From assembly GCF_001542905.1 (NCBI RefSeq), contig NZ_LOAJ01000001.1, positions 1,736,001 to 1,800,000 of the forward strand: a stretch of DNA of 64,000 bases. The letters are read 5' to 3'. Positions 847 through 34,290 of this stretch are shown here, piece after piece. The position numbers and the translations under genes were made by a program. The notes under the pieces were generated by a model. That model did no database searches. It had not been told where the DNA came from and worked only from the letters and a program-made list of their open reading frames with translations. The DNA comes from Halorubrum aethiopicum (GTDB taxonomy: Archaea; Halobacteriota; Halobacteria; Halobacteriales; Haloferacaceae). Numbering within the stretch: the first letter of the stretch is position 1; every line of letters starts with the position of its first letter.

Positions 847-1316
847 ACCACACCACACCCCCTTCGGTTCACATCGAGATCATAACACACCGACCCATCC
901 CGGGTAACTGCATCACCACAGCGAGCCCCCACTCGACTCAACCACCACTCACCACCAGCAGGAGACACAGCCCCACCAAGCACCCGCAACGCACGGCGAA
1001 CCGCTGGTGAGGCGTGTACTACCGGGCGGTCCAACGACCCTCGACCCTGGAGAGCCGGGAACACAACCGGACACGCAGTCCGGCCTGCCGACTCACCGCA
1101 CGACCATACTGCCCGACCCGCACACCACCACACCCCGCCTGTGCAGCTCGACGCGATCGACGATCCCGCGCCCGGGAGTGGGCGGTCCGGGACGCATCGA
1201 CCCTGGAGAGCCGGGAACGCGACCGGACACGCAGTCCGACCCGCCGACTCACCGCACGACCATATCGCATAACCGGAGTCAGCAGCCCGGCCGTCACGAC
1301 CGTGACGACGGGTCAC
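843..1316 (-). CDS. Small Cys/Trp-rich repeat protein in the RAMP operon (uncertain)
   Basis: A GTG at 1316 overlaps the stop of the gene before it (GTGA), and its stop overlaps the next ATG (ATGA). Both junctions match the coupling used elsewhere in this operon, which is the main reason to accept it. The 157-residue product contains two copies of a segment with the core SCGESAGRTACP, encoded by 68-bp direct repeats spaced 156 bp (52 codons) apart, so the repeat is in phase. The composition is odd for a haloarchaeon: rich in Arg, Cys, Trp and Gly and poor in Asp and Glu. I do not recognise a family. The alternative is a non-coding spacer that happens to be open. A genuine gene is only slightly favoured. 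Confidence 0.35.
   Translation of the reverse strand: MTRRHGRDGRAADSGYAIWSCGESAGRTACPVAFPALQGRCVPDRPLPGAGSSIASSCTGGVWWCAGRAVWSCGESAGRTACPVVFPALQGRGSLDRPVVHASPAVRRALRVLGGAVSPAGGEWWLSRVGARCGDAVTRDGSVCYDLDVNRRGCGVV
1041..1264. repeat. Pair of 68-bp direct repeats
   Basis: Copies at 1041-1108 and 1197-1264 match at 64 of 68 positions and are 156 bp apart. The offset is a multiple of three in the minus-strand small ORF. With only two copies and a long spacer they do not make a CRISPR array. Confidence 0.8.
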
Positions 1317-2134
1317 GCATCCACCCCCACCGTGCCGCGCATCTCACCCGCGACAGCATCCTCAATGTACTGTAGCGCCGTCGACCACGACCGGATGCGA
1401 CGGAGCTGTGCGTCGACGTGTCGCCACCATACCGTGTCACGGTCCACCGGCGACCCAGACACGCGACTCCACACATCCGCAAACGACTCAGCCGGCGCCG
1501 GACCAAGCCACGCCGCCGACCCGTCCGGTGACGCCGTCAACCGCATCGTCACCCCATCCAACCACAGGATCGTTCGATGCGGCACCACCACGTCCACGTC
1601 GAGCGCCGCCTGCTGTCTCACCACTCGATCCGCATCTCCTGGCGGTGCGTCCGCTGCTGGTTCAACAACCAAGAACAGGTCATCAAACACGTGGCCCGCC
1701 CGGTACGCATCAAGCAACGCCGACACCAACAACACGTGATACTTCAACGACGAATACGGCAGAAACACCGACTCATTCACCAGCGACGCAGTCTCACTCG
1801 TCAACCACGCCGCGTGCAACTCTTCCGGCGACCCATCAACCAGCGGCGTGATCGAAGTATCCTGTACGGGGACCACCCCCGTTTCGAGTACCGAGCCCGT
1901 GAGCAGCGACAGCCGCGCTGGCGACGCGTGATTCGCCACCGTCTGCTCGGGTTCGCCGTCCGGCCGGCTCAACAACGCCGCATCCCGATCCGCTCCCAGC
2001 GGAACCGAGTCATTAACCGGCACATCGAACAGCTCGTCACACCCCGACCCGTGCTGACGACCACGCAGTTTGTGGACATCGTGCCGATACGCCACCCGCA
2101 GGTCCACGCTAACTATGTCACTCGCTTGCGCCAT
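1313..2134 (-). CDS. Unrecognised protein of the RAMP/type IV-like operon
   Basis: A longer frame begins at 2206, but the ATG at 2134 overlaps the stop of the upstream Cas7-like gene (TGATG). That coupled start is chosen, giving 273 residues. I see no nuclease, helicase or P-loop motif. The protein has a hydrophobic middle stretch (VFLPYSSLKYHVLLVSALLDA) and an Asp-rich remainder. By position, after csf1-like and csf2-like genes, it would sit where a csf3 (Cas5-like) or other effector subunit could be, but no glycine-rich RAMP loop is evident, so the role is inference from context only. It is followed by a GTGA overlap with the small repeat protein gene. Confidence 0.6.
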   Translation of the reverse strand: MAQASDIVSVDLRVAYRHDVHKLRGRQHGSGCDELFDVPVNDSVPLGADRDAALLSRPDGEPEQTVANHASPARLSLLTGSVLETGVVPVQDTSITPLVDGSPEELHAAWLTSETASLVNESVFLPYSSLKYHVLLVSALLDAYRAGHVFDDLFLVVEPAADAPPGDADRVVRQQAALDVDVVVPHRTILWLDGVTMRLTASPDGSAAWLGPAPAESFADVWSRVSGSPVDRDTVWWRHVDAQLRRIRSWSTALQYIEDAVAGEMRGTVGVDA

Positions 2135-3051
2135 CACAGCTCCCCCATACTGTTCACACGCTCTTGCAGCGGCGTCACGAACTGCTGACGCACTGACTCC
2201 CGCCACAGGTCATCCTTCCACGTCATTCCCGAGGTGGCGTCCTGCGCGCGATTGTACACCCGCTTGATCTCAGCGTCCGTGTACAGCGGGTTGATGACGC
2301 GCGCATCCACCATCCCCGCCCCGAAATTCCGCGCCCCACCCAACTGCAGTTCGAACTCATCACTATGCGCATCCAGGTAATCAACCGCCTCAACCAGCAG
2401 CCCGACGTACTCCGGTTTCAGTTCTCGGAGCGAGAGTTTCCACGTCCCCACGAGATTGCCGACAACGTCTCGGGACGCCATCCGCAACGGCTGCCCGTCA
2501 TCCTCACTGTTCCGTGAACGCACCTGCGTATTCAGTTGCCGATAATGCGCTTCCGCTTCGCCCTGCAGGACGTCGACTTGCCGGCGAATCGGAGAAAACC
2601 GGAGCGGCCGACGGACCAACCGCCCCGCCCGATCATTAAACCCTCCGAACAAGTCATAGACGACACAGCCGGCGTCGCCATCCACGCACGAGCCCTTCTC
2701 GTGGTACCCGGCGTCAAGGTCACGCTCATACACATCTTCGAGCATATAGTCCGCATTCGCCTCACCCGGATGACACGCCGACCCGCCCGCCACCTGCACC
2801 ACACGTTCACAGCCGTGGCGGAGCCACCCTGAGAGTGGGAACGGCGACACCATCCCCCCAATTTGGTTCTGCGGGTCGTCCGCCTCATACCGATCCGCCG
2901 AGGCATGGTGTCGATCGGTCACGATCCCATCGCCCGGTGCGAGCAGCGGAATTTCGAGTCCCACGTACAGATCTGGAAGTGTGAGATGTTCGACGTCGTC
3001 CGGCAACGTCACCTCACGATCCAAATGCGACGTCTCAAACTCCGGCACCAT
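2134..3051 (-). CDS. Cas7-like RAMP protein, Csf2-like
   Basis: The product has 305 residues from the ATG at 3051, which overlaps the stop of the zinc-finger gene by one base. It has the layout of Cas7-group RAMPs: an N-terminal strand with GLEIPLLAPGDG, a SPFPLSGWLRHG segment (the usual G-S-LKG-LR position), a Cys-containing stretch followed by YDLFGG (the CxxCxLFG position), and near the C-terminus GGARNFGAGMVDARV, a glycine-rich loop. In CRISPR effectors such proteins polymerise along crRNA. Being next to a small zinc-finger protein fits type IV csf1-csf2. RAMP membership is fairly firm; the Csf2 assignment is inference. Confidence 0.7.
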   Translation of the reverse strand: MVPEFETSHLDREVTLPDDVEHLTLPDLYVGLEIPLLAPGDGIVTDRHHASADRYEADDPQNQIGGMVSPFPLSGWLRHGCERVVQVAGGSACHPGEANADYMLEDVYERDLDAGYHEKGSCVDGDAGCVVYDLFGGFNDRAGRLVRRPLRFSPIRRQVDVLQGEAEAHYRQLNTQVRSRNSEDDGQPLRMASRDVVGNLVGTWKLSLRELKPEYVGLLVEAVDYLDAHSDEFELQLGGARNFGAGMVDARVINPLYTDAEIKRVYNRAQDATSGMTWKDDLWRESVRQQFVTPLQERVNSMGEL

Positions 3052-3545
3052 CACCAACCACCCCCATCAGCCCGAGTATCCTCACAGACAGCCGTCAGCA
3101 ACGGCATCGGACCATCCCGACGCTCAGTGACGGTAGTGCTCCGGGCCTCAGCACCGCGCGCCGCATCACCCACCACACGAGCCGACCCCGACGACGCCAC
3201 ACTCACCACCACCACCGACCGCGCAACCAGAACCAACCACGACGACTGCACCGCCACATCAGAACACAGCCCAACCCGACCAGTCACCACGAGCTCGTCG
3301 ACGCCGCGTATGAACTCCGTCGGGTGCGTATGCTTATCCGCCCCACACATCACGTATCCGATCTCAAAAATGGGGTTGCCAGCCGCCCGGAAGGCATACG
3401 CCGTCACCCCATCGCCTTCCCGGATCTCACACCCGCACACCTGACACACCGCCGGCCCTTCCCCGAGCGCATAAAATTCCACTTGATTTATCTCTTCAAT
3501 TAACTGATCGACGTTCTCTTGACCGCTGAAGTCCTTCTTTGTCAT
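3051..3545 (-). CDS. Small zinc-finger protein, Csf1-like
   Basis: This is the first gene of the minus-strand operon, 164 residues. Residues 34-39 give CQVCGC and C67 with H72 and H74 supply the second half of a probable zinc site. A well-formed stretch follows (GRVGLCSDVAVQSSW). The last about 45 residues are low in acidic residues and look less conserved, and may exist only because the frame is open up to the next start. Type IV CRISPR systems start with Csf1, a small zinc-finger large-subunit substitute, so the call rests on finger plus adjacency to a Cas7-like gene. A plain haloarchaeal zinc-ribbon protein is the alternative. Confidence 0.55.
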   Translation of the reverse strand: MTKKDFSGQENVDQLIEEINQVEFYALGEGPAVCQVCGCEIREGDGVTAYAFRAAGNPIFEIGYVMCGADKHTHPTEFIRGVDELVVTGRVGLCSDVAVQSSWLVLVARSVVVVSVASSGSARVVGDAARGAEARSTTVTERRDGPMPLLTAVCEDTRADGGGW

Positions 3546-4090: not shown

Positions 4091-5341
4091 TTGTATATGG
4101 GAACACTGTCAATGACTGAGCCTGAAGTGCTAGCAACAACAAAAGAGCAGTTATTTACCGGATATGAGACTGGCTCAGGATACACCGTTGTCGACACTCA
4201 ATTCTCAACCGATCAGTGGTTGAATAATGTTCCAATCCCGCAGGAAGTAACCGAGACCCTAGCGCCATTCAATCACGTACGTGTGGGTTCAGGGTATCCT
4301 GATCTTGTTGGCGCTGGTTCGATAGCAGGTGACTCCTTTCGAGGTCACTGCGGAGACCTAGACTCTCCACCTCTAACCGTCGTTGAAGCGAAGGGATACG
4401 GATCGACTGGGCAGGTTGACACAGAGATGGGAATTGTTCAAGCTCATAACCGGCTACAGGGGGCGAATCTGGGGTTTTTAGCTGCTCCTCGCAGCTCTAT
4501 CTCGCCAGAAACCCGAGCTCTTGGTCGAGAATTAAATATCGGTGTTCTCGGAGTAACGGAAAACCAATCGGTAGAGGTACTTGAGAAACCGCGAGCAGTT
4601 GGCACACAGGTCGGTCAAGAAGCATCGACGATACGTTTCCAAGCCGGTCCACAGCGCGTTGCTGACCAGTCGTTTCATCTTAACCGCCCAAAAAACTATC
4701 TTGGGTATCCGTTCTGTGTCTACCATCCCGAACCGACTAGGGATGTTCTCGAAGAATACGTGGTGGGAGATTTCAAAAGTGCCAGAGACGGTGCTGCATT
4801 CCTCGGGCTGATAGAGAAGCAACCAGACGGCTCTGATGTTCTATCTCCTTTGGGTGAGGAAGTGCTTCGATTCGGGTTACAAAAACACGAGCAATCATTG
4901 AAATCTGTGTTAGAAGAATTCAAATTATGGAAAGGAGAGCAGACGAGACTAACTCAACTAGCACCTGACTGGGCGTTGATTGCCCGACGTGTTGTGTTCT
5001 CTTTTCCCGCAACACAGATGCTCGTAAAACATATTCAAGAGCTTCAGAACAAAGATCAGCCGCCGATTCTACCTACCGTAGTGGAGCATCTGTTTGATAC
5101 CTCGGCTACGTTTGCGGTCGAATTCTTCATTCGGGATACAGAAGAGGCACGGTCTGCAGTACTGACGGCCGATGGCGACTTGATTACTCCCTCACTGTTG
5201 GAACCACACGTGTACCGTTCAGTGGTCGCGTATCAATTTAAACAGATGCTGTACCATTCTGGCATCCTTGTAGAGTCCGGATCTGATTCGAGTAATCTTG
5301 AACCACAGGAGAGTGACTGGCGATTGGAACAACCGATCTGA
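4091..5341 (+). CDS. Probable PD-(D/E)XK-type nuclease-like protein
   Basis: The 416-residue product has in its N-terminal third an arrangement expected of PD-(D/E)XK enzymes: YPDLVG with D71, then after a beta hairpin VVEAKG with E99 and K101, followed by a helix with Gln (residues 114-120). The C-terminal two thirds are helical and unrecognised, with a possible winged-helix segment near LSPLGEEVLRFG. The start could also be the ATGs at 4097 or 4112. It runs toward the minus-strand TGT operon and ends 40 bases from it. Inference: the nuclease or target-recognition part of the adjacent modification/restriction system. A PD-(D/E)XK fold without cleavage activity cannot be excluded. Confidence 0.6.
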   Translation: MYMGTLSMTEPEVLATTKEQLFTGYETGSGYTVVDTQFSTDQWLNNVPIPQEVTETLAPFNHVRVGSGYPDLVGAGSIAGDSFRGHCGDLDSPPLTVVEAKGYGSTGQVDTEMGIVQAHNRLQGANLGFLAAPRSSISPETRALGRELNIGVLGVTENQSVEVLEKPRAVGTQVGQEASTIRFQAGPQRVADQSFHLNRPKNYLGYPFCVYHPEPTRDVLEEYVVGDFKSARDGAAFLGLIEKQPDGSDVLSPLGEEVLRFGLQKHEQSLKSVLEEFKLWKGEQTRLTQLAPDWALIARRVVFSFPATQMLVKHIQELQNKDQPPILPTVVEHLFDTSATFAVEFFIRDTEEARSAVLTADGDLITPSLLEPHVYRSVVAYQFKQMLYHSGILVESGSDSSNLEPQESDWRLEQPI

Positions 5342-5381: not shown

Positions 5382-7403
5382 CTACTGGGGTGGTGTCGAT
5401 GAGAGCACGTCATTTAGGTGCTCAGATAGCTCTTCAAGATGAGTTGCTCTGAAGTGTTCAGTGAGTGCGCGCATTTTCGGGTTTTTCGGGAGGACAACGC
5501 CATCTCCGTACTCGGAGAGCGCTTGCTCTATTACGGTGCGGTAGGTTTTGCTGGTCGCATAGCCAACGATGGCATCGAACTGTGAACCGTATTCTTCAAG
5601 GTAGGAAGTCAAACGGTTCACGACGAGTTGTTGGCGTTGTTTCTCAGCGTTCGTCAGCACGTACTCATATGATTTGATCTGCGAGAAATTTTCGTATTGT
5701 TCGGGTACAGGGCCGTACATACCAGAGACAGTCACTTTGTGGATCTGATCATTCCACTCAGCGGTTGCGTCTGCTACGACACGGTGCGTTCGGGAATTCG
5801 AATACGGTTTGGTTTGGCTACACGGGATAATGAGCAGTACGCGCTCATCACCGATCCGGTAGTCCTTCCGTTGAAGAATGTTGAAATCTTCCGGTGTATG
5901 CTCAAGTGAGATTTCTTGGTTATCGACTGGGATATCCAAGTCAAGCCGTTCCTGATCTGCATCGCTTTGATCGGTGGTGAGTCGATTGTAGCCGCGCTCA
6001 CGGAGCTGTTGTGCCAATTCACGGTCTCGGACTGTTGCTCTTTTTAATGCTCGTTTGATGTTCCCGACATCGTTGCGAGCCATTTTGGCAACGTATTCAA
6101 GTAACTCGCCGCCACCGTCGTTGATCAACTCCCGCACGTGATTCATTTCGTCTTGGTAAACACAGAAGTTATGATAGCTCATCAGTGCGTAAAAATCGCT
6201 CTTCATATATTCTCCGTCTCGATCATACGACTCGCTGTCATACATTGTGCCCTGCAGCTGCTCGAAACCTATCCGTCGTAGCTGCTCACATGCGGGACAT
6301 TGACAACCCCAGTCGTCGGGAATCTGATCCGCAGTGAATTTCGACCAGTCCGCTGCCCATCGTGCGTCGGCTGTCCGGTTGACGTCAACCCCAAAATCAC
6401 CCAAATCGTGTGTCGAAGCGTTCGGATTTCGGACAAGTTCCTCATCTGAAGCTCCGATCTCTCGATTGATGAATTTCTTGAACTGTGCTGCTTGCACATA
6501 GCTTGACGAGTCAAATGAATCCGCGCCAAGAAGCGTCAGGAGCGCCGTGAACTTACCACTAATCCCGAATAAATGAAGCCCGAGATCATTTTCCCGGTCC
6601 GCAGGAATCGCATCCTTCGCACCTTGCACGATGTCAACCAGCATTTCGACGTTCGTTCGGAGTGGGACGAGTGACCCGATTGCAAATCCCTCAAATGACT
6701 TGTCGATGTGCGTCGCACGGTCAAGGAACGTCCCGACGTACCAATTGATCGTTTCGTAGTCGTGACCGTGAATAGCGACATACACCGCGGGCGGATCTGG
6801 CTGATCCTCCAAGAGTTCAAGACAGCGTATGGCGCTGTCAATACTGTCTTCCATTCGTTGAGTCGTCTCCTCATCGTTCAGATTCGGTGGGATCGGATAG
6901 TCTAGGGTAGCGATGATATCAGCGCCATAATCGAGCTGCAAGTCTAGAATACTCTCTGGATTCGTGTAGATAGCCCAGTCATTATCATCGCCTCCCTCCG
7001 TTGGCGGGTCGCCGAAGGTATCGGAGTTTAGAAGCTTGAATCCGCCTGAGTCTACAAATAACGGCTTAGTGAAACTCTCCGGCTGTGAGTGATACGGCTT
7101 GACCGGCTCATGATCTGTGAAGTGGTCGTGGATCGGTTTCGAGCGCCAGTTCTCAAGCGATTCGGGAGTAATATTGAAATCCAAGAAACTCATCGCTTGG
7201 AACATCGCGCCTTGAAACTCGGGTTCTCCGAAGAGATGATTCCGCAATCGACTCCAAATTCCGCCGGACTTCTCGTTGGGTCCACCAATAAAATTGACTA
7301 CGGGGAAGAACGCTGGTGTCTGGACATCGCCATGTGGTGTATGGATCGTACCGCGGCGTGCGTTGCCAGCATCGTCAGTCGTGTCGGTCTCAAACGATGC
7401 CAT
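5382..7403 (-). CDS. TGT base-exchange enzyme fused to an ArcS-like (DUF5591) domain; DpdA-like
   Basis: The 673-residue product has two parts. Residues about 15-420 form a tRNA-guanine transglycosylase barrel: DSGGFK (D118), the LDYP loop (D168), FAIGSL (240-245), SFDSSSY with the expected nucleophile D298, and the zinc ligands C367, C369, C372 and H411. Residues about 515-660 contain PCSQTKPYSNSRTH at 527-540, an exact fit to PC-X3-KPY-X2-S-X2-H, the motif I know as diagnostic of archaeosine synthase ArcS. Canonical ArcS has lost TGT activity and carries a PUA domain for tRNA; here the TGT site looks intact and no PUA is seen. That points to DNA as substrate, as with bacterial DpdA. Inference: preQ0 is exchanged into DNA and then converted toward an archaeosine-type base. 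It is the last gene of a minus-strand operon. Confidence 0.85.
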   Translation of the reverse strand: MASFETDTTDDAGNARRGTIHTPHGDVQTPAFFPVVNFIGGPNEKSGGIWSRLRNHLFGEPEFQGAMFQAMSFLDFNITPESLENWRSKPIHDHFTDHEPVKPYHSQPESFTKPLFVDSGGFKLLNSDTFGDPPTEGGDDNDWAIYTNPESILDLQLDYGADIIATLDYPIPPNLNDEETTQRMEDSIDSAIRCLELLEDQPDPPAVYVAIHGHDYETINWYVGTFLDRATHIDKSFEGFAIGSLVPLRTNVEMLVDIVQGAKDAIPADRENDLGLHLFGISGKFTALLTLLGADSFDSSSYVQAAQFKKFINREIGASDEELVRNPNASTHDLGDFGVDVNRTADARWAADWSKFTADQIPDDWGCQCPACEQLRRIGFEQLQGTMYDSESYDRDGEYMKSDFYALMSYHNFCVYQDEMNHVRELINDGGGELLEYVAKMARNDVGNIKRALKRATVRDRELAQQLRERGYNRLTTDQSDADQERLDLDIPVDNQEISLEHTPEDFNILQRKDYRIGDERVLLIIPCSQTKPYSNSRTHRVVADATAEWNDQIHKVTVSGMYGPVPEQYENFSQIKSYEYVLTNAEKQRQQLVVNRLTSYLEEYGSQFDAIVGYATSKTYRTVIEQALSEYGDGVVLPKNPKMRALTEHFRATHLEELSEHLNDVLSSTPPQ

Positions 7404-7476
7404 TCTCTACACGTCATTGAGGATGGGATGTGATAAGTTCGGTCGTTCCGCGAGGAGACAATCTCAATTGGATCTG

Positions 7477-9027
7477 CTACAGTCTGTCCTGAACCGTGAC
7501 GATATGGATGTTATGCCGACGACCATTATTATAGATTAGTCGGTCGTTCTCAAGGTCAATCGTGACCTCTCCACTATGATACCCTGAGCGCTCAAGCTCG
7601 CTTAGCTCGTCGCGGTCGCCGTACGACCAACAAACGATCTTATCGACGCTCTCAAGCGGTTTATCCGCCTTAAAGTGATCCGTGAGCCGACGATGAATCG
7701 AACTCGCGTAGAGGTTGGTATCCTGACGAACCAGCGCGTTGACCTCCGCACTTGGGTCGTAATCTTCAACTGTAATCTCCGGTTCAGCCCCAAAGCGGTT
7801 CGAGCGCTCCAATCCGAGAACGACTTCGGCGTCGTTGGATGGCGTGAATCGGTTTCGGTCTTGGATCCGTTGCTCGCGTTTTTCGATGGATGATTGTTGG
7901 GACTCTGCGCGGCGGGTGAGTTTCGCCTTGCGGCGGTGAGACAAGTAATCTTTGAACCACGGATCTGATGCAATCTTCGAAAGATAGTGGCTGAGTTCCT
8001 CTACAATTGCCTGATATACCGGGCTAGACTTGTTCCGTATCTTTTCACGGTTTGCCGATAATTCGAGGTCTTGGCAGTTTGCGATGAAGAAAAAATGAAG
8101 GAACTCGTTGTCGTGTGAGATGGTGTCGTTGACCCGCTCAACTTTGATGTGGTCTTTTGCCAGCCAGACACCGAACTGTGCCGAGTGCTTTCCGTAAGTA
8201 GGGAGCTCGTTACGAGCGTCTTTGCCTCCCACCATTCCAACCACCTCTACAGTTGTTTTCGTTCCGTTTTCGGTTTCGACAGTGAGTTCCCGTGGCGGGT
8301 AGTGTTTACACATCCGCGATTCCGAGAACTGGCCCTCTCCGGGGTTCCGCTGCTCGGTCGGGAACTCAAGCTTGTTGTTCATTACCAGTTGGTCTCGTGT
8401 GTCGTCGATCTCGTCACCGAGGGTGACCGTTATTTCCATTTCTGGGAAATCATCTGTGAAGAAGTGACCTGTTGATCCGGCGAGCGTCTTCCATTTCAGG
8501 TAGTGCTCAATCTTGTTGTAGGTGAGCGATGCTGGCGAGAAACCGTGCCCGGATTTGAATCCGGTAATACGGATGTGCGTCCCGGAGTTCCCTTCTTTGA
8601 CTGCCTCCTCGTTCAGCACATACTCGGGCATTGTCCGGTTATTGAGCTTTTCCCACGGCTGATCCATCTGTGCGCGTAAGTTGGTCCCGTTCTTCGTGGT
8701 ATTGACGAGTACCTCCTCGCTTTTGTAGAAAATCTTCGTTCCGTGACCTTTGTACCCGATCGAGCCGTTTTGACGGCCGCGTTTCGTGGAGTTTCCGAGA
8801 TCGAAGAACGACTCAAGATCAGCGTGATCCATCCCCTCCCCGTCGTCTTCGATAACGATTTCTGATCCAATCGGTCGGTCTCGAATGGTAATTTCGACTT
8901 CCGTCGCACCAGCATCATAACTGTTCGACAGCGACTCGCGGATCACTTCAAGCGGATCCTCGAAGTCGCTGGCGATCTCTAGAAATTCGTTTACTTCGTT
9001 GACTTGCGGTGTTTTCGTTGTTGACAT
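7477..9027 (-). CDS. GHKL (Hsp90/MORC-type) ATPase
   Basis: The 516-residue product starts with a Bergerat ATP-binding fold: N-box around RESLSNSYDAGA (E31, N35), DDGEGM at 61-66 and the glycine lid GYKGHGTKIF at 91-100. A middle domain includes SANREKIRNKS, similar to the transducer part of Hsp90/MORC/MutL-like ATPases. A basic coiled-coil (RRKAKLTRRAESQQSSIEKREQR, near residue 370) and an unrecognised tail follow. It lies between two TGT genes in one operon, its start next to the stop of the second TGT gene. Such ATPases often clamp nucleic acid in defence systems; a role in modification or in sensing unmodified DNA is inference. Confidence 0.8.
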   Translation of the reverse strand: MSTTKTPQVNEVNEFLEIASDFEDPLEVIRESLSNSYDAGATEVEITIRDRPIGSEIVIEDDGEGMDHADLESFFDLGNSTKRGRQNGSIGYKGHGTKIFYKSEEVLVNTTKNGTNLRAQMDQPWEKLNNRTMPEYVLNEEAVKEGNSGTHIRITGFKSGHGFSPASLTYNKIEHYLKWKTLAGSTGHFFTDDFPEMEITVTLGDEIDDTRDQLVMNNKLEFPTEQRNPGEGQFSESRMCKHYPPRELTVETENGTKTTVEVVGMVGGKDARNELPTYGKHSAQFGVWLAKDHIKVERVNDTISHDNEFLHFFFIANCQDLELSANREKIRNKSSPVYQAIVEELSHYLSKIASDPWFKDYLSHRRKAKLTRRAESQQSSIEKREQRIQDRNRFTPSNDAEVVLGLERSNRFGAEPEITVEDYDPSAEVNALVRQDTNLYASSIHRRLTDHFKADKPLESVDKIVCWSYGDRDELSELERSGYHSGEVTIDLENDRLIYNNGRRHNIHIVTVQDRL

Positions 9028-10269
9028 TCAGAAGTATCCTCCAAGTGATTCGTTTACAACGCGGTGTGCGTGCTGTTGCATCGATTTCTCCCGTCCCAGT
9101 GACTGCTCGATGTATGAAATCAACTCCCCGTCTCCCGGACTCTGAATCGCGGATTGCATTCTCTGTATTTCTTCTTTTTGAATAATTAGGTTGTGCATCG
9201 CAACCGCTCCAAGCTTGTCTTTCTGATACTCTGCATCTCCCTCCATACGCTTCACCAATACATCATCACTACAGACTTGACAGTCACATTTCGAAAAATC
9301 AACATCATCCACAGGCTCAGAATTGTACAACGAGGTATCGTATTTTCCGTTAATCGCTGAATGAATGTATGATGATGAATCAAACGTGTCTGCACCAACT
9401 GCAGCTAGGAGGGGAATCGCACTAGATGAGATCCCTAGGACGTGGAGAGGCAACTCTTCGAATCCCCAGTCAGCCAGGACTTCACGACAATCACTCACAG
9501 CGGTGATCAGCTTTTCCTTGTTATCTTTGAGTGGAACGAGACTCCCGAGGGCAACTCCATCGAACTCTCGATGGACACGGTCCCGGCCGATGACCTTCTC
9601 TACCTCTGAAAGAAACGTATCGAGCATAGAGTAGTTGTACCCATGGAGTGTCAGATACCGTGTGTCGTCTCGGCTGGTTAAGTTCAGGAACTCGTCGACG
9701 TTTTGGGCAGTCAGTCTTGCTTTCTCAACGCGAGTCGGATAATCATCATCGGGTGCAATAGGCCGATCAAGATTTACGAGGACGTCTCCTCCGAGCTTTC
9801 GTTGTATCTCCACGATTGCTTCCTGATCAACTTCGACCTCAAAGTCGCTACCATCAAGTCTGCTATCTCCAAGGAATTTGAATCCACCTGAGTCAAGAAA
9901 GAGGGTGCCATCAAAATCAAACACATCGCGTTCTCTGATCGGTTCAGAAATGTAGTCTTCGTACCGTTCTCTCGAGATCCCATAGTCCGTTAGCGACGCA
10001 ACAGATGTCATTACTCCGTCAAAATATCGGCTGTAATCACCACCGTTTACGACTTCGTCTCCGTTCATAAACTCCTTGATAGTTCGGTGGATACCGCCAC
10101 CATACAGACTTGCGTCTGTTCCTCCGGCATAGAAATTAACAACTGGAAGAAGGTTCGGAGTCGATAGTTCCGTGTCGCCGATCCGCAAAACTCCACTTCG
10201 AGCGTCACCCGCCTCAGCGGAAATCTCAAAGATGTCGTTTTTGAACTGCTCTGACCGGGACTCCATCAC
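9028..10269 (-). CDS. Second TGT base-exchange enzyme, DpdA-like
   Basis: The 413-residue product is a stand-alone TGT barrel. It shows LDSGGF (D126), NLDRP (D168), ALGSLVPL (240-247), TFDSSSY with the expected nucleophile D297, and a zinc site C328, C330, C333 and H359. It shares the TP-x2-PVVNF start and the FDSSSY signature with the longer TGT of this operon, so the two are paralogues, but it has no ArcS-like part and no PUA domain. Its ATG overlaps the stop of the small upstream gene (ATGA). Family knowledge: TGT proteins exchange guanine for 7-deazaguanines; DpdA does so in DNA. The pair may form a heterodimer or use different sites or precursors (inference). Confidence 0.8.
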   Translation of the reverse strand: MMESRSEQFKNDIFEISAEAGDARSGVLRIGDTELSTPNLLPVVNFYAGGTDASLYGGGIHRTIKEFMNGDEVVNGGDYSRYFDGVMTSVASLTDYGISRERYEDYISEPIRERDVFDFDGTLFLDSGGFKFLGDSRLDGSDFEVEVDQEAIVEIQRKLGGDVLVNLDRPIAPDDDYPTRVEKARLTAQNVDEFLNLTSRDDTRYLTLHGYNYSMLDTFLSEVEKVIGRDRVHREFDGVALGSLVPLKDNKEKLITAVSDCREVLADWGFEELPLHVLGISSSAIPLLAAVGADTFDSSSYIHSAINGKYDTSLYNSEPVDDVDFSKCDCQVCSDDVLVKRMEGDAEYQKDKLGAVAMHNLIIQKEEIQRMQSAIQSPGDGELISYIEQSLGREKSMQQHAHRVVNESLGGYF

Positions 10270-10724
10270 GCAGTCACCTCGCTACACATATCATTGCGTA
10301 CTACTTGTTTCAACTTCCGACCTTTTGTTCCGATCCCATCCCCCTTGATATAGGCTATGTCGACATTATTATGGTTAGAAATATCACCAACAGCTTGAGT
10401 GTAGACAGACCCCATATTCATAATAGCAGTCTCATAATCACCAGTTGAGATACAGTGACGTAGGTCTTCTGTAACGTATTCGCGTAATTCGCTAGCCCGC
10501 GAAGGCGTCATACGTCGATCATAGTTGGTGATATCATCGTCGGCGCAGAGTATTCCGTGCTCCGCCGAGAGAATTCGAAGTTCAATATCTGATCTAAATG
10601 CGCCCTCTCTCATTGCTTTTTTGATAATTTTGAAAAAATAGCCATCGTACACTTCTATAGCTCGGGTTGGTTTGGTCACCTGATTTTTAGTGGCTGAACA
10701 GGACTGAACGAGGAGCGTGGGCAT
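10266..10724 (-). CDS. DUF6884/YaaA-like small protein, possible DpdC counterpart
   Basis: This is the first gene of the TGT operon, 152 residues. It has SCSATK at 8-13, SAEHGIL at 53-59 and YDRRM at 68-72, the pattern of DUF6884-type proteins related to YaaA. The SCSxTK loop also resembles the PCSxTKPY loop of the ArcS-like domain in the last gene of the operon. In bacterial dpd clusters DpdC, described as YaaA/DUF328-like, changes inserted preQ0 to an amide form. A base-tailoring role on a 7-deazaguanine is therefore plausible but inferred. The ATG at 10724 faces the divergent 833-residue gene across a 213-bp AT-rich region that must hold both promoters. Confidence 0.6.
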   Translation of the reverse strand: MPTLLVQSCSATKNQVTKPTRAIEVYDGYFFKIIKKAMREGAFRSDIELRILSAEHGILCADDDITNYDRRMTPSRASELREYVTEDLRHCISTGDYETAIMNMGSVYTQAVGDISNHNNVDIAYIKGDGIGTKGRKLKQVVRNDMCSEVTA

Positions 10725-10937: not shown

Positions 10938-13439
10938 ATGGACGCAGAAAGAATCTCAAAACAGTCGAAAGGTAACGTCGACCAGTCATTACTAGAAGGA
11001 ACGGGTAGCGGCGGAATGTTATCTGCGGGGTATTTCAACGATAAATCGCTTATTGATCGACTTCACGACGGTGAGCGTGTGGACTATGCTCTCCAGAATC
11101 TCACTAAAGGAATTACACTCCGTAATGGGGACTCCGATGATACAATAAGCCCTCATTCGAGCTATCGGACAGTCCTACTCGTAACTGACGAGCGTCTCCT
11201 CTATGTCGTCGGTCAAGAAAACGGTGATAATACGTTCTCCGTCCGGTTCGAGGATATTCGAGATGTCGAGATATCTCACGGCGTTTTGAAAGACCGAATT
11301 ATTGTCCAAACAGACGCTGAAACGTACGATATGTACACACAGAAAGGTGGTGGTTTAGACGAAGCTTCCAAACACATCTCTGGGTTCTCAGAAAAGTCGA
11401 ATGAATCATCTGTCGATGAGCAAATAGAGCGAAAAAACAAAGAATGTACAGAAACCGATCCAAACGAGCCTCCCGGCAGACCCGAACATTCTGCTAATGT
11501 ACTAAAACAGGCCGGACGTAATACGGATTCCGAGGGAGATCCGTCGAATTCAAACTCAGATATGTCTGTGACCGTTGAGATACTCGTTTCGAATATCGAT
11601 GGAGAACCAGTCCCTGACGCAAGGATCAAAATCACTGGAACGACACTCTCAGTGAACGGACGAACTTCGCAAACTGGGCGGTGTAGTATCTCTGTTTCCG
11701 AAGCCTCCGCATCGGTCAAGATGGAGGTCAATCACCCTGAGTATCAAACAATACGGGAAGGGGTAACGTTGGCTGATGGTGCTGTTATCGATATCACCCT
11801 CAAAAGTGTTGATAGTACTGACAGTCACTCGGAAGAGAAGTCTCGCTCTGACGGTGCCGATTCTACTGAGACTTCAGATACAGGCAATGGATCACCGGAG
11901 CGTACGGAGCTATTGGACGAACTCGTTGCGCTAAATGAGCGCTTCTCCCAGAAGGTGACTCGAGGGAGAATGCGCACTGACGGAAAGTACAGTCCGGAAG
12001 ATTATGAGACGGCGTTCGGATCGTGGTCAACTGCCGTGGATCAAGCGCAGTTTGATCGGACGAACGAGAGGTCGTCAGCCCAACCAAATCAGCAAACGTA
12101 CTCGAGACAGGAAGTTATCGACGCCCTCGTTGACCTAATCGAGAAGGTGGAGGGTCGGCCTAGTACATCGGATATGAACGATTTGGGTGAGATGTCCGCC
12201 TCTCCCGTCTACCAGTATTTCAAAAGTTGGGATGCTGCCGTTGATGCTGCAAAGGAGGAACACGGTGCGGTAGAGTCAGATCACTATCGAGGTCAATCTG
12301 AGAAATCCGCTGACGGTTCAGCTACAAATTCTCCTTCGAAGGATACGGCGTCGGAACAGACGGAAGACAGTGACTTAACAGCCGATCAGCAGGATTCGGA
12401 GGTGTCCTCTGAGGCCTTTGCCGAACTCAACGGTTTTCGACGTGATTTGTTGGTCGTGATCAATGGGTTGGAAGCACCGAAGGGACTCGAAATAAAACGG
12501 GAACTAGAGGAGTACTATGACGGAACGATTCACCATGGTCGTCTTTATCCCAACCTAGACACGCTCGTGGAAGTAGGCTTCCTCGAGAAGTCGGCACAGG
12601 ATGAACGGAGCAATCGATACGAGTTGACGGACCTCGGTGCCAATCACATTGAAGCCCGATATCACTGGCAGCGGGATCGAGTCGCCACTAACGAAAACCA
12701 AACACAGACACCTGACCCCAAAGACAGGACGACATCAGAGACCGCTAAGGACGACACCCCCAGTAAGAAAGAGCAACGAGATAATACTCACACAGAAAAC
12801 ATTCCACATAATTCGGCGACGGAGGATAGCAAACAAAATTCCAACAGTGAGCCAACCGAAGAAGATGACTTCGAATGGGGTGTCGAAGAGTCAGATTTAG
12901 TCTCGGACAATCTTGATGAAGTACCAGAAGGACGTCTCTCTAACGTAGTTGTAGAAGTCATAAAAATCCGAGATATTTCGCCTGGGAAACGCGATTCGAT
13001 CGTCGAAATCAAGCTATCGAACGGGAAGCGAATCGACTTCACAATCTGGAACAAGCACGACATTGAGATTGATTTTCAGACTGGGGATAAGCTCCGGTTA
13101 AATGAGGTCAGACTCAAGCGATGGGAAACCGATCACGGATACGCTCATCAATTGAGTAGTACGAAAGACCTCACAATCGTTCCCATTGAGGAGTCTGGTG
13201 TTCAGCGGCCGTTTGAGGAAGATGAAGAAGACGAGTGTGTAAGTGGTGAGTCAGAGAAAGCGCACGACATTGATCAGCTTATTGGAGTAGGAGGTGCGAC
13301 GAAAGCCGACGCGGAGGCTCTCATAGAATCCGGGTATATGACGACTGCGGATCTAGAAAATGCCTCGCTCGATGACCTCCGATCGGTTTCGGGACTTGAC
13401 GACGGAACGGCTTTGCGTATCAAAGCAGAACTCGGGTAG
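10938..13439 (+). CDS. Multidomain DNA-binding protein (PH-like, Ig-like, HNH-associated repeats, winged helix, OB, HhH)
   Basis: The 833-residue product strings together small domains. Residues about 30-150 resemble a bacterial PH-like domain (TDERLLYVVG). Residues about 208-295 are a carboxypeptidase-regulatory/Ig-like fold (DGEPVPDARIKITG). Residues about 325-370 and 390-435 are two homing-endonuclease-associated repeats (RGRMRTDGKYSPEDYETAFG and a diverged copy). Residues about 500-575 are a PadR-type winged helix (HGRLYPNLDTLVEVGFLEK). About 650-755 could be an OB fold, and the last 55 residues are a helix-hairpin-helix pair (LIGVGGATKADAEALIESG). Acidic linkers separate them. No catalytic site is seen. 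It is divergent from the TGT operon and convergent with the ATPase/helicase operon. I infer a DNA-binding scaffold or recognition subunit. Confidence 0.75.
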   Translation: MDAERISKQSKGNVDQSLLEGTGSGGMLSAGYFNDKSLIDRLHDGERVDYALQNLTKGITLRNGDSDDTISPHSSYRTVLLVTDERLLYVVGQENGDNTFSVRFEDIRDVEISHGVLKDRIIVQTDAETYDMYTQKGGGLDEASKHISGFSEKSNESSVDEQIERKNKECTETDPNEPPGRPEHSANVLKQAGRNTDSEGDPSNSNSDMSVTVEILVSNIDGEPVPDARIKITGTTLSVNGRTSQTGRCSISVSEASASVKMEVNHPEYQTIREGVTLADGAVIDITLKSVDSTDSHSEEKSRSDGADSTETSDTGNGSPERTELLDELVALNERFSQKVTRGRMRTDGKYSPEDYETAFGSWSTAVDQAQFDRTNERSSAQPNQQTYSRQEVIDALVDLIEKVEGRPSTSDMNDLGEMSASPVYQYFKSWDAAVDAAKEEHGAVESDHYRGQSEKSADGSATNSPSKDTASEQTEDSDLTADQQDSEVSSEAFAELNGFRRDLLVVINGLEAPKGLEIKRELEEYYDGTIHHGRLYPNLDTLVEVGFLEKSAQDERSNRYELTDLGANHIEARYHWQRDRVATNENQTQTPDPKDRTTSETAKDDTPSKKEQRDNTHTENIPHNSATEDSKQNSNSEPTEEDDFEWGVEESDLVSDNLDEVPEGRLSNVVVEVIKIRDISPGKRDSIVEIKLSNGKRIDFTIWNKHDIEIDFQTGDKLRLNEVRLKRWETDHGYAHQLSSTKDLTIVPIEESGVQRPFEEDEEDECVSGESEKAHDIDQLIGVGGATKADAEALIESGYMTTADLENASLDDLRSVSGLDDGTALRIKAELG

Positions 13440-13458: not shown

Positions 13459-14160
13459 CTACGACAACGAGAGTTCCACGTAATCTTCGAGGTCGGAATC
13501 GCGCAGCAAGTCGATTTGCTTGTCGGTAAGCTCGTCGAGAAAGAGTTGTTTATCGGATAGCAATCCCTCAACGATCGGTTCTAACGGCGTCCCAACGTAC
13601 GGGCCGAATATCTCTTCGCGGCACTCTTCGAAGTACTCCCGCATATCCTTTCCGTAGTCTGCAGCCCGCTGCTTGAGTCTTTCAAAGCTCCACTCATCGT
13701 CTCGGTAGACCTGTCCTTTCCAATCCCAATCGGAGAGGAGTTCGTGGACCGCTTGGAGCCTGACTTCGCTCACACGTTCAACACGCTCATTGAGTCGCCT
13801 CATTCCGTTCACACGACTCTGCATTCCGATTCGAATCTCGTGGATCTCGTTGCTCACCCGACGTTTCTGGTCTTCAACCTTCGATCTGAGCGCATCGATG
13901 CGGTCACCAAGTACCTCGAAATCGCCTTCTTCCAACAACTCTCGTGCCTTGGCAACGGCTTGTTTGGCATCATCGTCGATCTTAAGATCAGTCTGAAGGA
14001 ACTCTTCAGCCAGGATCCGTTGGAGTATCGTTTCCTCCATCGTTTCGGCGATATCCTCTAATCGGGAAGCAAGCTGTCGGTGACGATACTGTTGGTAGAT
14101 CTCTTCGATGCTTTCTTCGAAGTTTTTGTCGGGCAAATTTTCAGATTGTTCAGTCGACAT
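13459..14160 (-). CDS. Coiled-coil protein, last gene of the ATPase/helicase operon
   Basis: The 233-residue product is almost entirely helical and highly charged, with heptad-like stretches over about residues 20-140 (RQLASRLEDIAETMEETILQ) and no recognised domain. Its start overlaps the stop of the large ATPase gene by 11 bases, so it belongs to the same transcript. It is probably a structural partner of that ATPase. Function unknown. Confidence 0.65.
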   Translation of the reverse strand: MSTEQSENLPDKNFEESIEEIYQQYRHRQLASRLEDIAETMEETILQRILAEEFLQTDLKIDDDAKQAVAKARELLEEGDFEVLGDRIDALRSKVEDQKRRVSNEIHEIRIGMQSRVNGMRRLNERVERVSEVRLQAVHELLSDWDWKGQVYRDDEWSFERLKQRAADYGKDMREYFEECREEIFGPYVGTPLEPIVEGLLSDKQLFLDELTDKQIDLLRDSDLEDYVELSLS

Positions 14161-17083
14161 AGTGAGTACTCACCTCCGTGAACTCCTCTCCGAGCTTATC
14201 GGTACCACTAGTTCCTGTTAGCGGGACTTCTCTAAAATTCGCCACCACTACATCGTTATCAAGTTTCAGACTAGCCAGAGTTGCTGTAGTTCTAGCGAAT
14301 GGATTTCCACCATACAGCCGATTGGCAAGCTCAGCTGCACTCACGGCATCATCCAACTCTGATTGAGTGTGATTACACACCTGCCCGAGCTGTTCCGTGA
14401 GATCGGGATCAACCGCATCGTACGTCTTCAGTTTTTTGTACCGATCATTAACGGATTGTATGTCCGTATCCGACAGCATCTCTGAGACGTATTCAACGGC
14501 TTCGCGCTGATAGCTGTGGTCCGTTGTGTCGTTGAGCGCCTTCCTGATATCGTACATCGTGTCGGCAAGGTCACGTACGTTATGACCCGATACGAATCGG
14601 ACACGTGATGCAATATTTCCGATGTATTGGCGACCGAGCATCCCAAGGACTTCGAAAGGCGGGTTTTGCTCCAAACGGTTGCGGACCTCCGGTACGTCGA
14701 GAGTGCTGGCAGAAACGCCTAGCAACGAGCCAAGCACATCTTCAACGTACTTTGCGTCCTCCATCGCTTCCTTGACTGCCTTAATCTCTTCATGTCCAAG
14801 CACTTCGTCAAGTCCCGAGAGCAGTTGCCGGTCAACCGTGAGTTCATCGTCAGATTGGTACCGCTCGTTCAGTCGCTCGGCAGTCACTTCGTGCCACGGA
14901 TCATCGAGAAGTGTTAGCGTCGAATACGTTGCGAGAAGGAAGTCAGTGAAATCGTATCGAGCGTGCCGCTTGTAGAACACGCTGTCGCTGTTCAGTTGTG
15001 TTTCGATGATCTTGTTACGCCACTCTTCAGCGTATCCGGTGAGTTGAGTACCGGCGGCTTCCAACTGTGCCGAATAGTCTGCGGATCTCGGTTCTATGTC
15101 TCGACGTACTCCAAATTCGACGAGCCGACGAAGGTCGGAACGGCGAAAATCACCTCTGTCAAGAATGATCTGGTCGGGATCCGGTGGCTCGTTCGAATCG
15201 GGATAGACGAATGGAGATTTCTGGCTACTGAGCATATAGCGCAGTGAGGTTCCCTCGATTAGACGGAGATCATCAGTGATCTCTTCCAAGAGATCCCGGA
15301 GAGCACGTTTGATGTACTCGTCCGTTTCAATGTACTTCGTTGGGTCTTCGATCCACGAGTCAATCTGTTCTTTTTGTTCCTTGATTTCCTGTTCAACTCT
15401 AGATCGACCACCACCACCACCACCACCAATTCTGTGTCCGCACTTAGAACAAATCTGGCTACCATCGGTATCAGTTCTCCACGCTACAGCACCACACTCG
15501 GGACAGGGATCGGGGTTTGGTCCATCCCCGGTAGATGCTACCTCTACCTGATGAGCACCAACTTCTATTTCGTTGGGTAGCCCGGTCGTTTCGAAACCAA
15601 ACGCGTCGACAAATTCTCTATTGATAACGACGTGGTCCCCCTGCTCACGTCCGTACCATTTAGCGAGATCGGCATACTCCTCGGCATCTTCGTAAACCTC
15701 GTCTGCGACAGAAACCGTATTCCCGAGTGGCCTGAGAACGTCTGCGGACGACGGAGCTTCAATATATCCTTCATGGTAATCCTGTAACACCTCGAATATC
15801 GTCATAATAAATTCACGCGGGGACTGCTGACTCTCGTCGAATCCGGCATAGATCCGCCGAACGAACGTCTGGTTGAACGGGAATAAGTCACGGAACGATT
15901 CCTCACAGAAGCCACAATCGGCGCAGATTGACCCCTCTGAGGCTTCTTTGAGATCGAACGTTCCATCGTCAGTGTTCCGATCGTATTGAACGCTACCGTC
16001 GTGTGATTTGATATATCCGAGATATGGACGTACAAAGTCAACTGCAGAGTCTTCGTTCAGGAATAGCACCGTATTCGAATCCTGTTCATTGGTCTGGAAG
16101 AACTCGAAGCGATCCTCCGCCGTCCGGGTGTGTAAAACCTCTGTAGAGTCACGGGTTCCCGCGACAATGAAGTCCCAATTGTCCGCGGACTTATCGCGCT
16201 CCATATACTTTCGGAGTCGCTCTGCTTCCATCGCGGCGATAGAGAAGTCCTCGAAGACGATGACTGGCCGAGTGTCCTCGAACTGTTGTCCGACTTGGTC
16301 AAGCACGTCACCAAGCGAAGAGGTATCGTAGTTCTCCCTGATTACCTGCCAGAGAGCGTTGTTGAACGCTTCGACGGCTTCTGAAACGCCAATTTCCTCA
16401 TTGAAAATTTTCAGTTCATCACGCTGTCTGTATTCGTTTTCTCCGATGAACTGAATCTTCTGAGCATACTCGCCCCGCTCGACGAGACGATTCAGTTTCT
16501 CGGCGATATAATCACGTATCTTGTCGGTCTGCTCACCGTCGGGAGCAACGTCGTACCCCTGCCTGCGCAGTGTGAGCGTCGCTCCCGAAGTGGCATTGTC
16601 TGCTACGGTCTGCGGGATGTCGACGATGTCGTCACGTAGGCGCTTGAACTCAGACGCTCCCGAGAGCTCTTCACCGAAGTGCTCTTGGTAGAACTCCGGA
16701 ATCCGCTCGGAAAGGATCGACATTAGATCGTCGTCTTTGTCGATGTGAAGCATCGGACGACCGTCGAGTCGGAGCCGGTGAGAGAGGTACGCGCAGAGTT
16801 CCGATTTACCGGTACCGACTTCTCCTTCGATGACGACGGCGAAATTCCCGACCCGATTATCAGAGAATTCTTGATAGATGCGATCCTCGTCCCACGTTTC
16901 ACCTCCCGCAGCTGTACCGCGGAAGACCTCCATGGACCGGTGCGTGAATTGGAAGAGGTCGTAATCCTCAGAACGGACTGCAGCGACCTTACTGAACAAT
17001 CGACGAAGCGTCTCTTCATCGACTTCGTCGAAGTGTGGACAACGTGCCGAGTCGGATTCGTCTGGTTTCACAATTTGATTCAT
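14150..17083 (-). CDS. Large P-loop ATPase with zinc ribbon, DpdH-like by size and context
   Basis: The 977-residue product has Walker A GEVGTGKS at 87-94 and a Walker B-like VIVFEDF near residue 273, indicating an AAA/STAND-type ATPase. A CADCGFC cluster follows near residue 390. A CPECG...CSKCG zinc ribbon lies near 535-560, followed directly by a run of seven glycines encoded by a CCA-type triplet tract around 15412-15430. The C-terminal half is helical and unrecognised. Its start overlaps the preceding gene (ATGA). Bacterial dpd clusters encode a roughly 1000-residue ATPase, DpdH, beside a short DpdG; size and neighbour match here, but I cannot prove homology by eye. Confidence 0.65.
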   Translation of the reverse strand: MNQIVKPDESDSARCPHFDEVDEETLRRLFSKVAAVRSEDYDLFQFTHRSMEVFRGTAAGGETWDEDRIYQEFSDNRVGNFAVVIEGEVGTGKSELCAYLSHRLRLDGRPMLHIDKDDDLMSILSERIPEFYQEHFGEELSGASEFKRLRDDIVDIPQTVADNATSGATLTLRRQGYDVAPDGEQTDKIRDYIAEKLNRLVERGEYAQKIQFIGENEYRQRDELKIFNEEIGVSEAVEAFNNALWQVIRENYDTSSLGDVLDQVGQQFEDTRPVIVFEDFSIAAMEAERLRKYMERDKSADNWDFIVAGTRDSTEVLHTRTAEDRFEFFQTNEQDSNTVLFLNEDSAVDFVRPYLGYIKSHDGSVQYDRNTDDGTFDLKEASEGSICADCGFCEESFRDLFPFNQTFVRRIYAGFDESQQSPREFIMTIFEVLQDYHEGYIEAPSSADVLRPLGNTVSVADEVYEDAEEYADLAKWYGREQGDHVVINREFVDAFGFETTGLPNEIEVGAHQVEVASTGDGPNPDPCPECGAVAWRTDTDGSQICSKCGHRIGGGGGGGRSRVEQEIKEQKEQIDSWIEDPTKYIETDEYIKRALRDLLEEITDDLRLIEGTSLRYMLSSQKSPFVYPDSNEPPDPDQIILDRGDFRRSDLRRLVEFGVRRDIEPRSADYSAQLEAAGTQLTGYAEEWRNKIIETQLNSDSVFYKRHARYDFTDFLLATYSTLTLLDDPWHEVTAERLNERYQSDDELTVDRQLLSGLDEVLGHEEIKAVKEAMEDAKYVEDVLGSLLGVSASTLDVPEVRNRLEQNPPFEVLGMLGRQYIGNIASRVRFVSGHNVRDLADTMYDIRKALNDTTDHSYQREAVEYVSEMLSDTDIQSVNDRYKKLKTYDAVDPDLTEQLGQVCNHTQSELDDAVSAAELANRLYGGNPFARTTATLASLKLDNDVVVANFREVPLTGTSGTDKLGEEFTEVSTHYVD

Positions 17084-23572: not shown

Positions 23573-23944
23573 TTTATATGATATCTGATCTTACCTTCGG
23601 GTTCACGTACTCGACAACAGTAAGAAGGCAAGATTTTATGGCGTTCCGATGCCGGACCCGGATCGCTAGATTTGACGGTCGGTTTGTCAACGTTATCTCA
23701 CGATTTACGCGACTCTGATGTAAAGTCACGGGTCAAAGAATCACGGTAGATACTGGCGCGCCGGTAAGAGTTTGCTGAAAACCACACCGTAAGGCCGTAA
23801 TGGTCGTGGAAATCTACAGAAACCGCTTCCTTACCCTTTTCTGTATTCCACGCTTATTATTAACAAGAAGTTTAGTTCGCAGTTATTCCAACCTACGCCG
23901 GAAGATTGAACTTGATATCCGAACCACACGTGGTATCTCACTCG
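23573..23944. other. Divergent intergenic region between the two helicase genes
   Basis: This stretch must contain the start signals for both helicase transcripts. AT-rich segments lie near 23573-23590 and 23853-23873 (CTTATTATTAACAAG). I see no gene, no repeat array and no convincing hairpin. A TTG at 23906 could extend the plus-strand helicase, but the ATG at 23945 is preferred. Confidence 0.5.
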
Positions 23945-29511: not shown

Positions 29512-29660
29512 TAGCGGTCACCACCGGCTATGATCGTACAACTGCGTGCGGTGCTCTGTTGCGGTTCGGCCGGGGGAGATACCGGTGGGCAACGAGAGAG
29601 TTGGCGGAGAGACGATCGTGAGTGGTGCTGCTGTTCCATCGATGGAGTATCGAAACTCAA

Positions 29661-29670
29661 TATTTATATA
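29661..29670 (+). promoter_or_regulatory. TATA box for queD
   Basis: TATTTATATA is centred about 27 bases before the ATG at 29692, with no Shine-Dalgarno site between. This is the standard picture of a leaderless haloarchaeal promoter and supports that ATG over the upstream in-frame start at 29530. Confidence 0.7.
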
Positions 29671-29691
29671 TTCCCTGGGTATTCTTCGAGT

Positions 29692-30929: not shown

Positions 30930-31041
30930 GCGTCGCCCAGGGCCAGCCCGGTCGAGATCGTGTGGTGCCGCGAGTGCGGCGTGGGCGTCGTACGCGGTGG
31001 GGTGAACAGAGTACCGATCGATTCGACGCAACTGAGCAGAT

Positions 31042-34268: not shown

Positions 34269-34290
34269 CCCTCATCACCTTCCCTATCTC

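Follow-up and report, generated by a model that had tools for sequence, protein, structure and literature searches.

A 64,000-nucleotide stretch of the Halorubrum aethiopicum contig NZ_LOAJ01000001.1 (positions 1,736,001 to 1,800,000; hereafter, the window) was found to carry two paralogous tRNA-guanine transglycosylase (TGT) genes, T1 and T3, in a head-to-tail run of four genes that also encodes a GHKL ATPase and a DUF6884 protein. The favoured reading, held with moderate confidence, is that T1 and T3 are separately complete base-exchange units, which together form the self-marking arm of a restriction island resembling the Dpd and BRIGADE systems. Sequence comparisons further suggest that the two units probably make different 7-deazaguanine marks. 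The four genes are:

5382-7403, reverse strand: T1, a fusion of a TGT domain with an ArcS-like DUF5591 domain, 673 amino acids (Pfam, conserved motif, fold match).
7477-9027, reverse strand: GHKL ATPase of the MORC/MutL/Hsp90 type, 516 amino acids, partner of T3 (Pfam, GHKL motifs, adjacency to T3).
9028-10269, reverse strand: T3, a short TGT, 413 amino acids (Pfam, active-site residues, tree).
10266-10724, reverse strand: DUF6884 protein, 152 amino acids, a DpdC-like candidate for preQ0 tailoring (DUF6884, E = 2.5e-10; PADLOC DpdC, E = 2.8e-5, weak).

The DUF6884 and T3 genes overlap by 4 bases, T3 and GHKL abut, and a 73-base gap separates GHKL from T1. Against its Pfam cut-off of 26.3 bits, the TGT domain scored 102 bits in T1 and 83.5 bits in T3; DUF5591 scored 59.5 bits in T1, HATPase_c_3 63.7 bits in the middle gene, and DUF6884 41.1 bits in the fourth. 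An alignment of T1 with T3 gives 27% identity over 449 columns (E = 2e-41). A 75-row tree, which also includes archaeal arcTGT, the E. coli TGT, DpdA, and further short TGTs, places the two as sister groups (support 98/94); the long branches flagged in it include those of the E. coli and Nostoc TGTs and of one bacterial T1 row. This identity and grouping justify calling them paralogous. Both proteins have the CxC..C..H zinc site and three key aspartates (that of the DSGG motif, a second one, and the nucleophile), two of them catalytic and one binding the base. The catalytic and zinc columns are invariant, or nearly so, among 38 T1 and 42 T3 orthologues, and the active-site residues are intact in all 40 of the T1 and T3 rows examined. 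The T1 motif PCSQTKPYSNSRTH is kept in 38 orthologues, and the PCSxTKPYSxSxxH motif of its DUF5591 domain is the same as that of the genome's own ArcS. A predicted model of T1 (mean pLDDT 79) matches TGT structures; thus, the features of the TGT superfamily, namely the fold (computed for T1), the catalytic Asps, and the Zn ligands, were all found. The GHKL motifs E31..N35, D61xGxG, and G91xKGHGTK are invariant in 24 orthologues, and the predicted model of the ATPase (mean pLDDT 76) matches Hsp90, MORC, and MutL structures. Because orthologues occur elsewhere, the T1/T3 pattern is beyond chance. Coordinates, Pfam matches, residues, and tree all agree with an earlier note on this DNA, which had described two paralogous TGTs of different length, with intact signatures and an ATPase between them.

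Assignment of T1 and T3 to ordinary arcTGT was rejected: their TIGR00432 scores were 88.5 and 120.5 bits, respectively, against a cut-off of 350, and the same genome carries separate arcTGT and ArcS genes for tRNA. Both were likewise rejected as ArcS (NF040592, 72.1 bits for T1 against a cut-off of 440), and a Pfam scan detected no PUA domain in T1 or T3. The DpdA model NF041059 (cut-off 200) gave 26.1 bits for T3 and no match for T1, and the two proteins stand on a separate branch from DpdA in the tree. A PADLOC scan of ten genes did not return the full Dpd set: T3 matched DpdA weakly (E = 1.7e-5), the DUF6884 protein gave weak DpdC matches, and there was no match to DpdB. The helicases of the island did match DpdJ. 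A viral origin was also set aside; no relative of T1 or T3 was confirmed in viral_contigs, and the phage records held none for T3 and one match to T1, at 23% identity.

The distribution of the genes was mapped by searching 391 haloarchaeal genomes, evenly drawn at one genome per species, with T1 and with T3. The 80 stretches around matches, from 42 genomes, were mapped together with the window, giving 43 positive genomes; all genome counts and co-occurrence statistics ignore relatedness. There are 38 genomes with a T1 orthologue and 42 with a T3 orthologue: both genes occur in 37 of the 43, T3 only in five (G027, G142, G290, G295, and G370), and T1 only in one (G236). The order DUF6884-T3-GHKL on one strand was seen in 42/42 T3 genomes, and GHKL adjoins T3 in 42/42. 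The placement of T1, counted from the neighbourhood map of the 37 genomes with both genes, is variable: T3-GHKL-T1 lie on one strand in 11, T1 is convergent with the trio in seven, upstream of it on the same strand in ten, divergent in three, and distant or separated by intervening genes in six (by up to 180 kb in G002). The fixed unit is therefore DUF6884-T3-GHKL, and T1 is a separate, mobile unit. This combination of a fixed trio and a variable T1 position indicates that the ATPase is the partner of T3, and that several layouts exist beside that of the window. A GHKL protein belonging to both TGTs was ruled out, since GHKL tracks T3 only. The TGT-ATPase-TGT trio that had been proposed as a unit is, thus, real as a one-strand arrangement in 11/37 genomes, but its ATPase goes with DUF6884 and T3.

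T1 and T3 co-occur far beyond expectation (Fisher p ~3e-45; E-value limits 1e-30 for T1 and 1e-20 for T3). Pairwise-distance correlations were 0.95 for T3-GHKL, 0.88 for T1-GHKL, and 0.85 for T1-T3. Those with HEL1, a helicase of the effector module described below, were 0.41 for T1 and 0.49 for T3, and HEL1 and its ATPase partner correlate at 0.96. This pattern suggests that the marking genes travel together, while the helicase module is exchanged. Because of the co-occurrence in 37/43 genomes and the covariation, T1 and T3 probably cooperate, in line with the claim that the two are active TGTs that belong together. Single-gene loci, on which the earlier note had placed weight, do exist (6/43 genomes), but they are not routine in haloarchaea.

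TGTs dimerise in general, and in the eukaryotic QTRT1-QTRT2 enzyme one subunit lacks the catalytic residues. An obligate T1-T3 heterodimer of this type, with one catalytic and one targeting subunit, had been suggested in the earlier note and would explain the joint presence of the two genes and their covariation. Several observations make it very improbable. T1 and T3 differ from the eukaryotic pair in that both have intact catalytic residues, so that neither partner is degenerate, and five of the 42 T3 genomes have an intact trio without T1, while one genome has T1 without T3. In two genomes (G081 and G099), T3 is 67-71% identical to that of the window, but T1 only 48-49%, and a Haladaptatus plasmid carries one T3 trio together with two different T1 genes (L225:24749-29448). 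Bacterial T1 proteins, moreover, stand without a detectable T3 in the flanks examined. Together, these findings disfavour the heterodimer.

Each unit is also found on its own, with a gene for a restriction-type nuclease nearby. The five T3-only loci (L140-L144) share a cassette that consists of a 310-amino-acid gene, the DUF6884-T3-GHKL trio, and an 829-amino-acid gene directly after GHKL (5/5); at L142, T3 was missed by automatic gene picking, but is present on the neighbourhood map. A second DUF6884 gene precedes the trio in four of the five. The 829-amino-acid genes are homologous in all five loci, and the protein of L140, the sole locus scanned, combines a GmrSD_N with a GmrSD_C domain and gives SspE-like matches. 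This cassette is a candidate minimal TGT restriction system. T1-type proteins (TGT plus DUF5591, mostly 619-704 amino acids) are encoded at 15 loci in bacteria of the Poribacteria, cyanobacteria, and Chloroflexi (L207 being a fragment and L180 split), and no match to T3, GHKL, or DUF6884 was seen in their flanks, several of which are short. At four cyanobacterial loci (L170, L175, L177, and L180), a downstream gene is homologous to that of L175, which has a GmrSD_N domain and PADLOC NsnA/SspE matches; a gene resembling HEL2, the second helicase of the window's island, lies between T1 and the GmrSD-type gene at L170. At the same four loci, the genes noted near TGT-DUF5591 were of the GmrSD/DUF262 and HEPN types. 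In Poribacteria, the upstream neighbours at L169 and L171 are homologous, and that of L171, when scanned, proved to be a PLD-SNF2 helicase.

These loci bear on a second alternative, in which T1 and T3 serve one pathway and produce one mark: T3 and GHKL would insert preQ0, and T1 would act mainly in the second step, its ArcS-like domain converting the inserted base. That T1 and T3 so strongly co-occur and covary is compatible with this, as is the additional DUF6884 gene in 4/5 T3-only loci, where T1 is missing. However, T1 keeps the whole TGT active site, whereas the TGT half of the genome's ArcS aligns only from about T1 residue 215; the bacterial T1 stands without a detectable T3 in the flanks examined; and the trio already has a DUF6884 protein of its own. 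A single pathway is, on balance, unlikely, although it is a stronger competitor than the heterodimer.

In the favoured mechanism of two complete units, unit A would comprise the DUF6884 protein, T3, and GHKL. T3 would swap guanine for preQ0 in DNA, the MORC/MutL-like GHKL protein would provide ATP-driven engagement of DNA, taking over what DpdB does in bacterial Dpd, and the DUF6884 protein would hydrate the nitrile to an amide, as DpdC does. Unit B would be T1 alone, with the TGT domain inserting the base and the ArcS-like domain tailoring it; by analogy with ArcS, the product may be an amidine or a lysine conjugate. DNA lacking the marks would then be attacked by the helicase/ATPase module and a nuclease, effectors that presumably read the marks. 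The suggestion that the two TGTs have two target specificities accordingly survives in a broader form: two specificities or two chemistries are favoured, rather than proven. A more far-reaching proposal can be offered only tentatively, its chances being somewhat less than even: that immune islands of haloarchaea mark self DNA with two different 7-deazaguanine bases, and that the TGT units responsible are autonomous. A MORC/MutL-type ATPase would drive one of them, the other would combine base insertion and the building of an archaeosine- or lysine-type side chain in one polypeptide, and each would also exist alone with a GmrSD/SspE-like nuclease as a minimal restriction system. Minimal TGT-based restriction systems are not described in the sources consulted. 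If the favoured reading is correct, the DNA of a single cell would bear two distinct 7-deazaguanine marks, each due to an enzyme separable from the other, and a TGT-ArcS fusion could construct a side chain of the archaeosine type in DNA. TGT-based marking would then be modular, with units swapping between Dpd/BRIGADE helicase effectors and GmrSD/SspE-type nucleases.

Several points weigh against this picture. The co-occurrence of T1 and T3 in 37/43 genomes and their correlation of 0.85 are also expected of a heterodimer or of an obligatory two-step pathway. The extra DUF6884 gene in 4/5 T3-only loci could replace the tailoring domain of T1, in which case the two TGTs may belong to a single pathway. 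The DpdC match of the DUF6884 protein is weak. Finally, HEL1 was found in only 26/43 neighbourhoods and its ATPase partner in 22/43; HEL1 is, thus, not obligatory nearby, and the effector often lies elsewhere or is different.

The substrate might instead be RNA (tRNA or other) or protein. Type IV CBASS (cyclic-oligonucleotide-based antiphage signalling system) uses deazaguanine chemistry, T3 weakly matches a PDB chain named Cap10 (E = 0.012), and a CBASS-type cyclase lies ~24 kb away; TGT and ArcS are, furthermore, tRNA enzymes. On the other side, the genes nearby encode DNA helicases, nuclease-like proteins, and relatives of Dpd components, and the presence of separate arcTGT and ArcS genes for tRNA, together with the failure to detect a PUA domain in T1 and T3, was counted in favour of DNA marking. 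A substrate other than DNA is, therefore, considered improbable.

A second design with two TGTs was found in the canonical DpdA islands of haloarchaea. Among 382 haloarchaeal genomes, 53 carry DpdA as defined by the PADLOC model, and these share a single genome with the 43 T1/T3 genomes, the T3-only G290 (Fisher p = 0.017, assuming that all 43 are among the 382 searched and ignoring relatedness). A second short TGT (~344 amino acids) was present in 34 of 40 DpdA regions (L265-L304, from 39 genomes), with two of the six misses at contig ends, and is usually followed by a 298-amino-acid gene and a BrxC/D-like ATPase gene. The long partner in these islands is DpdA, fused to or adjoining DUF6884. 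The two designs indicate that haloarchaea repeatedly pair a short TGT, which has its own ATPase, with a long TGT whose base-tailoring domain is either built in or adjacent. If the favoured reading is correct, the recurrent two-TGT islands, T1 and T3 with GHKL or DpdA and a short TGT with a BrxC/D-like ATPase, would have a simple reading. The contrast drawn in the earlier note with bacterial dpd clusters, which have one DpdA, holds less well within haloarchaea, where DpdA islands usually have a second, short TGT. One column of the alignment reads HG in 52/52 rows of short TGTs, T1, and T3, and Q in DpdA, the E. coli TGT, the Nostoc row, and 10/11 arcTGT rows. In known TGTs this residue (Gln203) contacts the base, and the substrate pocket may, because of this difference, not be the same. 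Short TGTs of the same branch were also observed in methanogen-type archaeal contigs (L183:9908-10939, near QueC/QueD relatives, and L187:9800-10828), and the DpdA region L281 of G284 contains two QueC-QueE-QueD sets within 20 kb.

The island around the window's TGT genes includes the following:

4091-5341, forward strand: candidate PD-(D/E)xK nuclease, convergent with T1 (motif GYPDLV..VEAKG..QAxxRL recognised by eye).
10938-13439, forward strand: HNH-repeat/PadR/HHH protein, an optional accessory (Pfam; relatives in 8/43 genomes).
13459-14160, reverse strand: small effector-module gene (orthologues in 21/43 genomes).
14150-17083, reverse strand: large P-loop ATPase of the effector module (Pfam, neighbourhood map).
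17080-17913, reverse strand: effector-module gene (neighbourhood map).
17910-18839, reverse strand: effector-module gene (neighbourhood map).
18836-23572, reverse strand: HEL1, a YprA/DruE-like helicase with an MZB (DUF1998) zinc domain (best match DruE, 1.7e-45).
23906-27988, forward strand: HEL2, a DpdJ-like helicase (PADLOC DpdJ, 9.5e-46; NCBIfam DpdJ, 1.9e-42, under the cut-off).
28852-29511, reverse strand: queuosine-precursor-type transporter, Vut_1 (family match).
29530-30153, forward strand: QueD, PTPS (family match).
30153-30929, forward strand: QueE-type radical SAM protein (family match).
31042-31731, forward strand: QueC (family match).

The motif of the candidate nuclease is broadly kept in the eight orthologues that have that stretch, and its reading frame has no Pfam or PDB match. 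A distant relative of the large ATPase in a canonical DpdA island matches DpdH, and a related ATPase gene stands beside canonical DpdA on another plasmid (L232, 832 bits). The preQ0 genes could not be supported as a private part of the island: apart from the QueC of the window, the genome gave no strong match to QueC, and this gene therefore probably also serves tRNA archaeosine. The G+C content is ~0.46-0.59 at 4001-42000, compared with 0.66 in the first 2 kb of the window, as expected for an acquired island. Three other groups of genes were noted in the window. CBASS-type genes at 33702-35373 encode a cyclase (34291-35373; PADLOC, 1.6e-162) and a 2TM/SLATT-like effector (33702-34268); a 2144-amino-acid protein at 43051-49485 matches the PADLOC defence family TmtA (1098 bits); and a RAMP-like gene and its neighbour at 1313-3057, perhaps CRISPR-type remnants, recur near these genes in 8-9/43 neighbourhoods.

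A search of the literature on TGT or DpdA combined with haloarchaea, GHKL, or both DUFs found no description of the T1/T3 pair. T1 resembles ArcTGT and ArcS in uniting a TGT domain with an ArcS-type DUF5591 that carries PCSxTKPYSxSxxH, and differs from them in having no detected PUA domain, in keeping the TGT catalytic residues, and in scoring far under the ArcS and TgtA cut-offs. Thermococcus ArcS was reported to transfer lysine to preQ0 nucleosides (PMC11298593). In bacterial Dpd, DpdB has the ATPase role and DpdC hydrates the nitrile to an amide (PMC12839542, PMC6884629). The window shares with the Dpd system, as those sources present it, the logic of TGT, ATPase, and DpdC-like protein and a DpdJ-like helicase, with a DpdH-like ATPase in a sister island; it differs in having GHKL instead of DpdB, two TGTs, and a base pocket with HG rather than QG. 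In BREX-related capture (BRC) systems, a TGT also adjoins an NTPase in a defence island, and the authors propose the NTPase as a replacement for DpdB (PMC12839542). The core of BRC is, however, HerA/FtsK, PglZ, and GNAT, with no DpdB or DpdC homologue reported and GHKL unmentioned in the part of that source compared.

BRIGADE is a Dpd-like defence class described as exclusive to halophilic archaea (Bell et al. 2025 preprint, PMC12458937), and by its gene content the island fits BRIGADE type I. The likeness lies in the halophilic archaeal host, the 7-deazaguanine genes QueD, QueE, and QueC at 29530-31731, and two YprA-type helicases, of which HEL1 is ARMADA/Druantia-like and HEL2 belongs to the Dpd branch, as assigned by family matches rather than by BRIGADE's own tree (PMC12458937). 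BRIGADE type I also has a PLD or PD-(D/E)xK nuclease, for which the window offers the motif recognised by eye at 4091-5341, without a library match (PMC12458937). The terms TGT, transglycosylase, DpdA, and GHKL do not occur in the main text of the preprint, supplements aside, and the two TGT units and their swapping are, within the same scope, absent from its description (PMC12458937). A likeness to the modification-sensing nucleases of the Ssp/GmrSD type lies in the GmrSD/DUF262 genes that adjoin the T3 trio in five haloarchaea and lie near T1 at four cyanobacterial loci; here, TGT-type genes take the place of the phosphorothioation genes, and the TGT genes of the window itself had no GmrSD/DUF262 gene next to them. 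For the halovirus HVTV-1, Hutinet et al. (2019) mention a DpdA of the host and the presence of dADG and dG+ in the viral DNA in small amounts, which makes marked haloarchaeal DNA plausible (PMC6884629).

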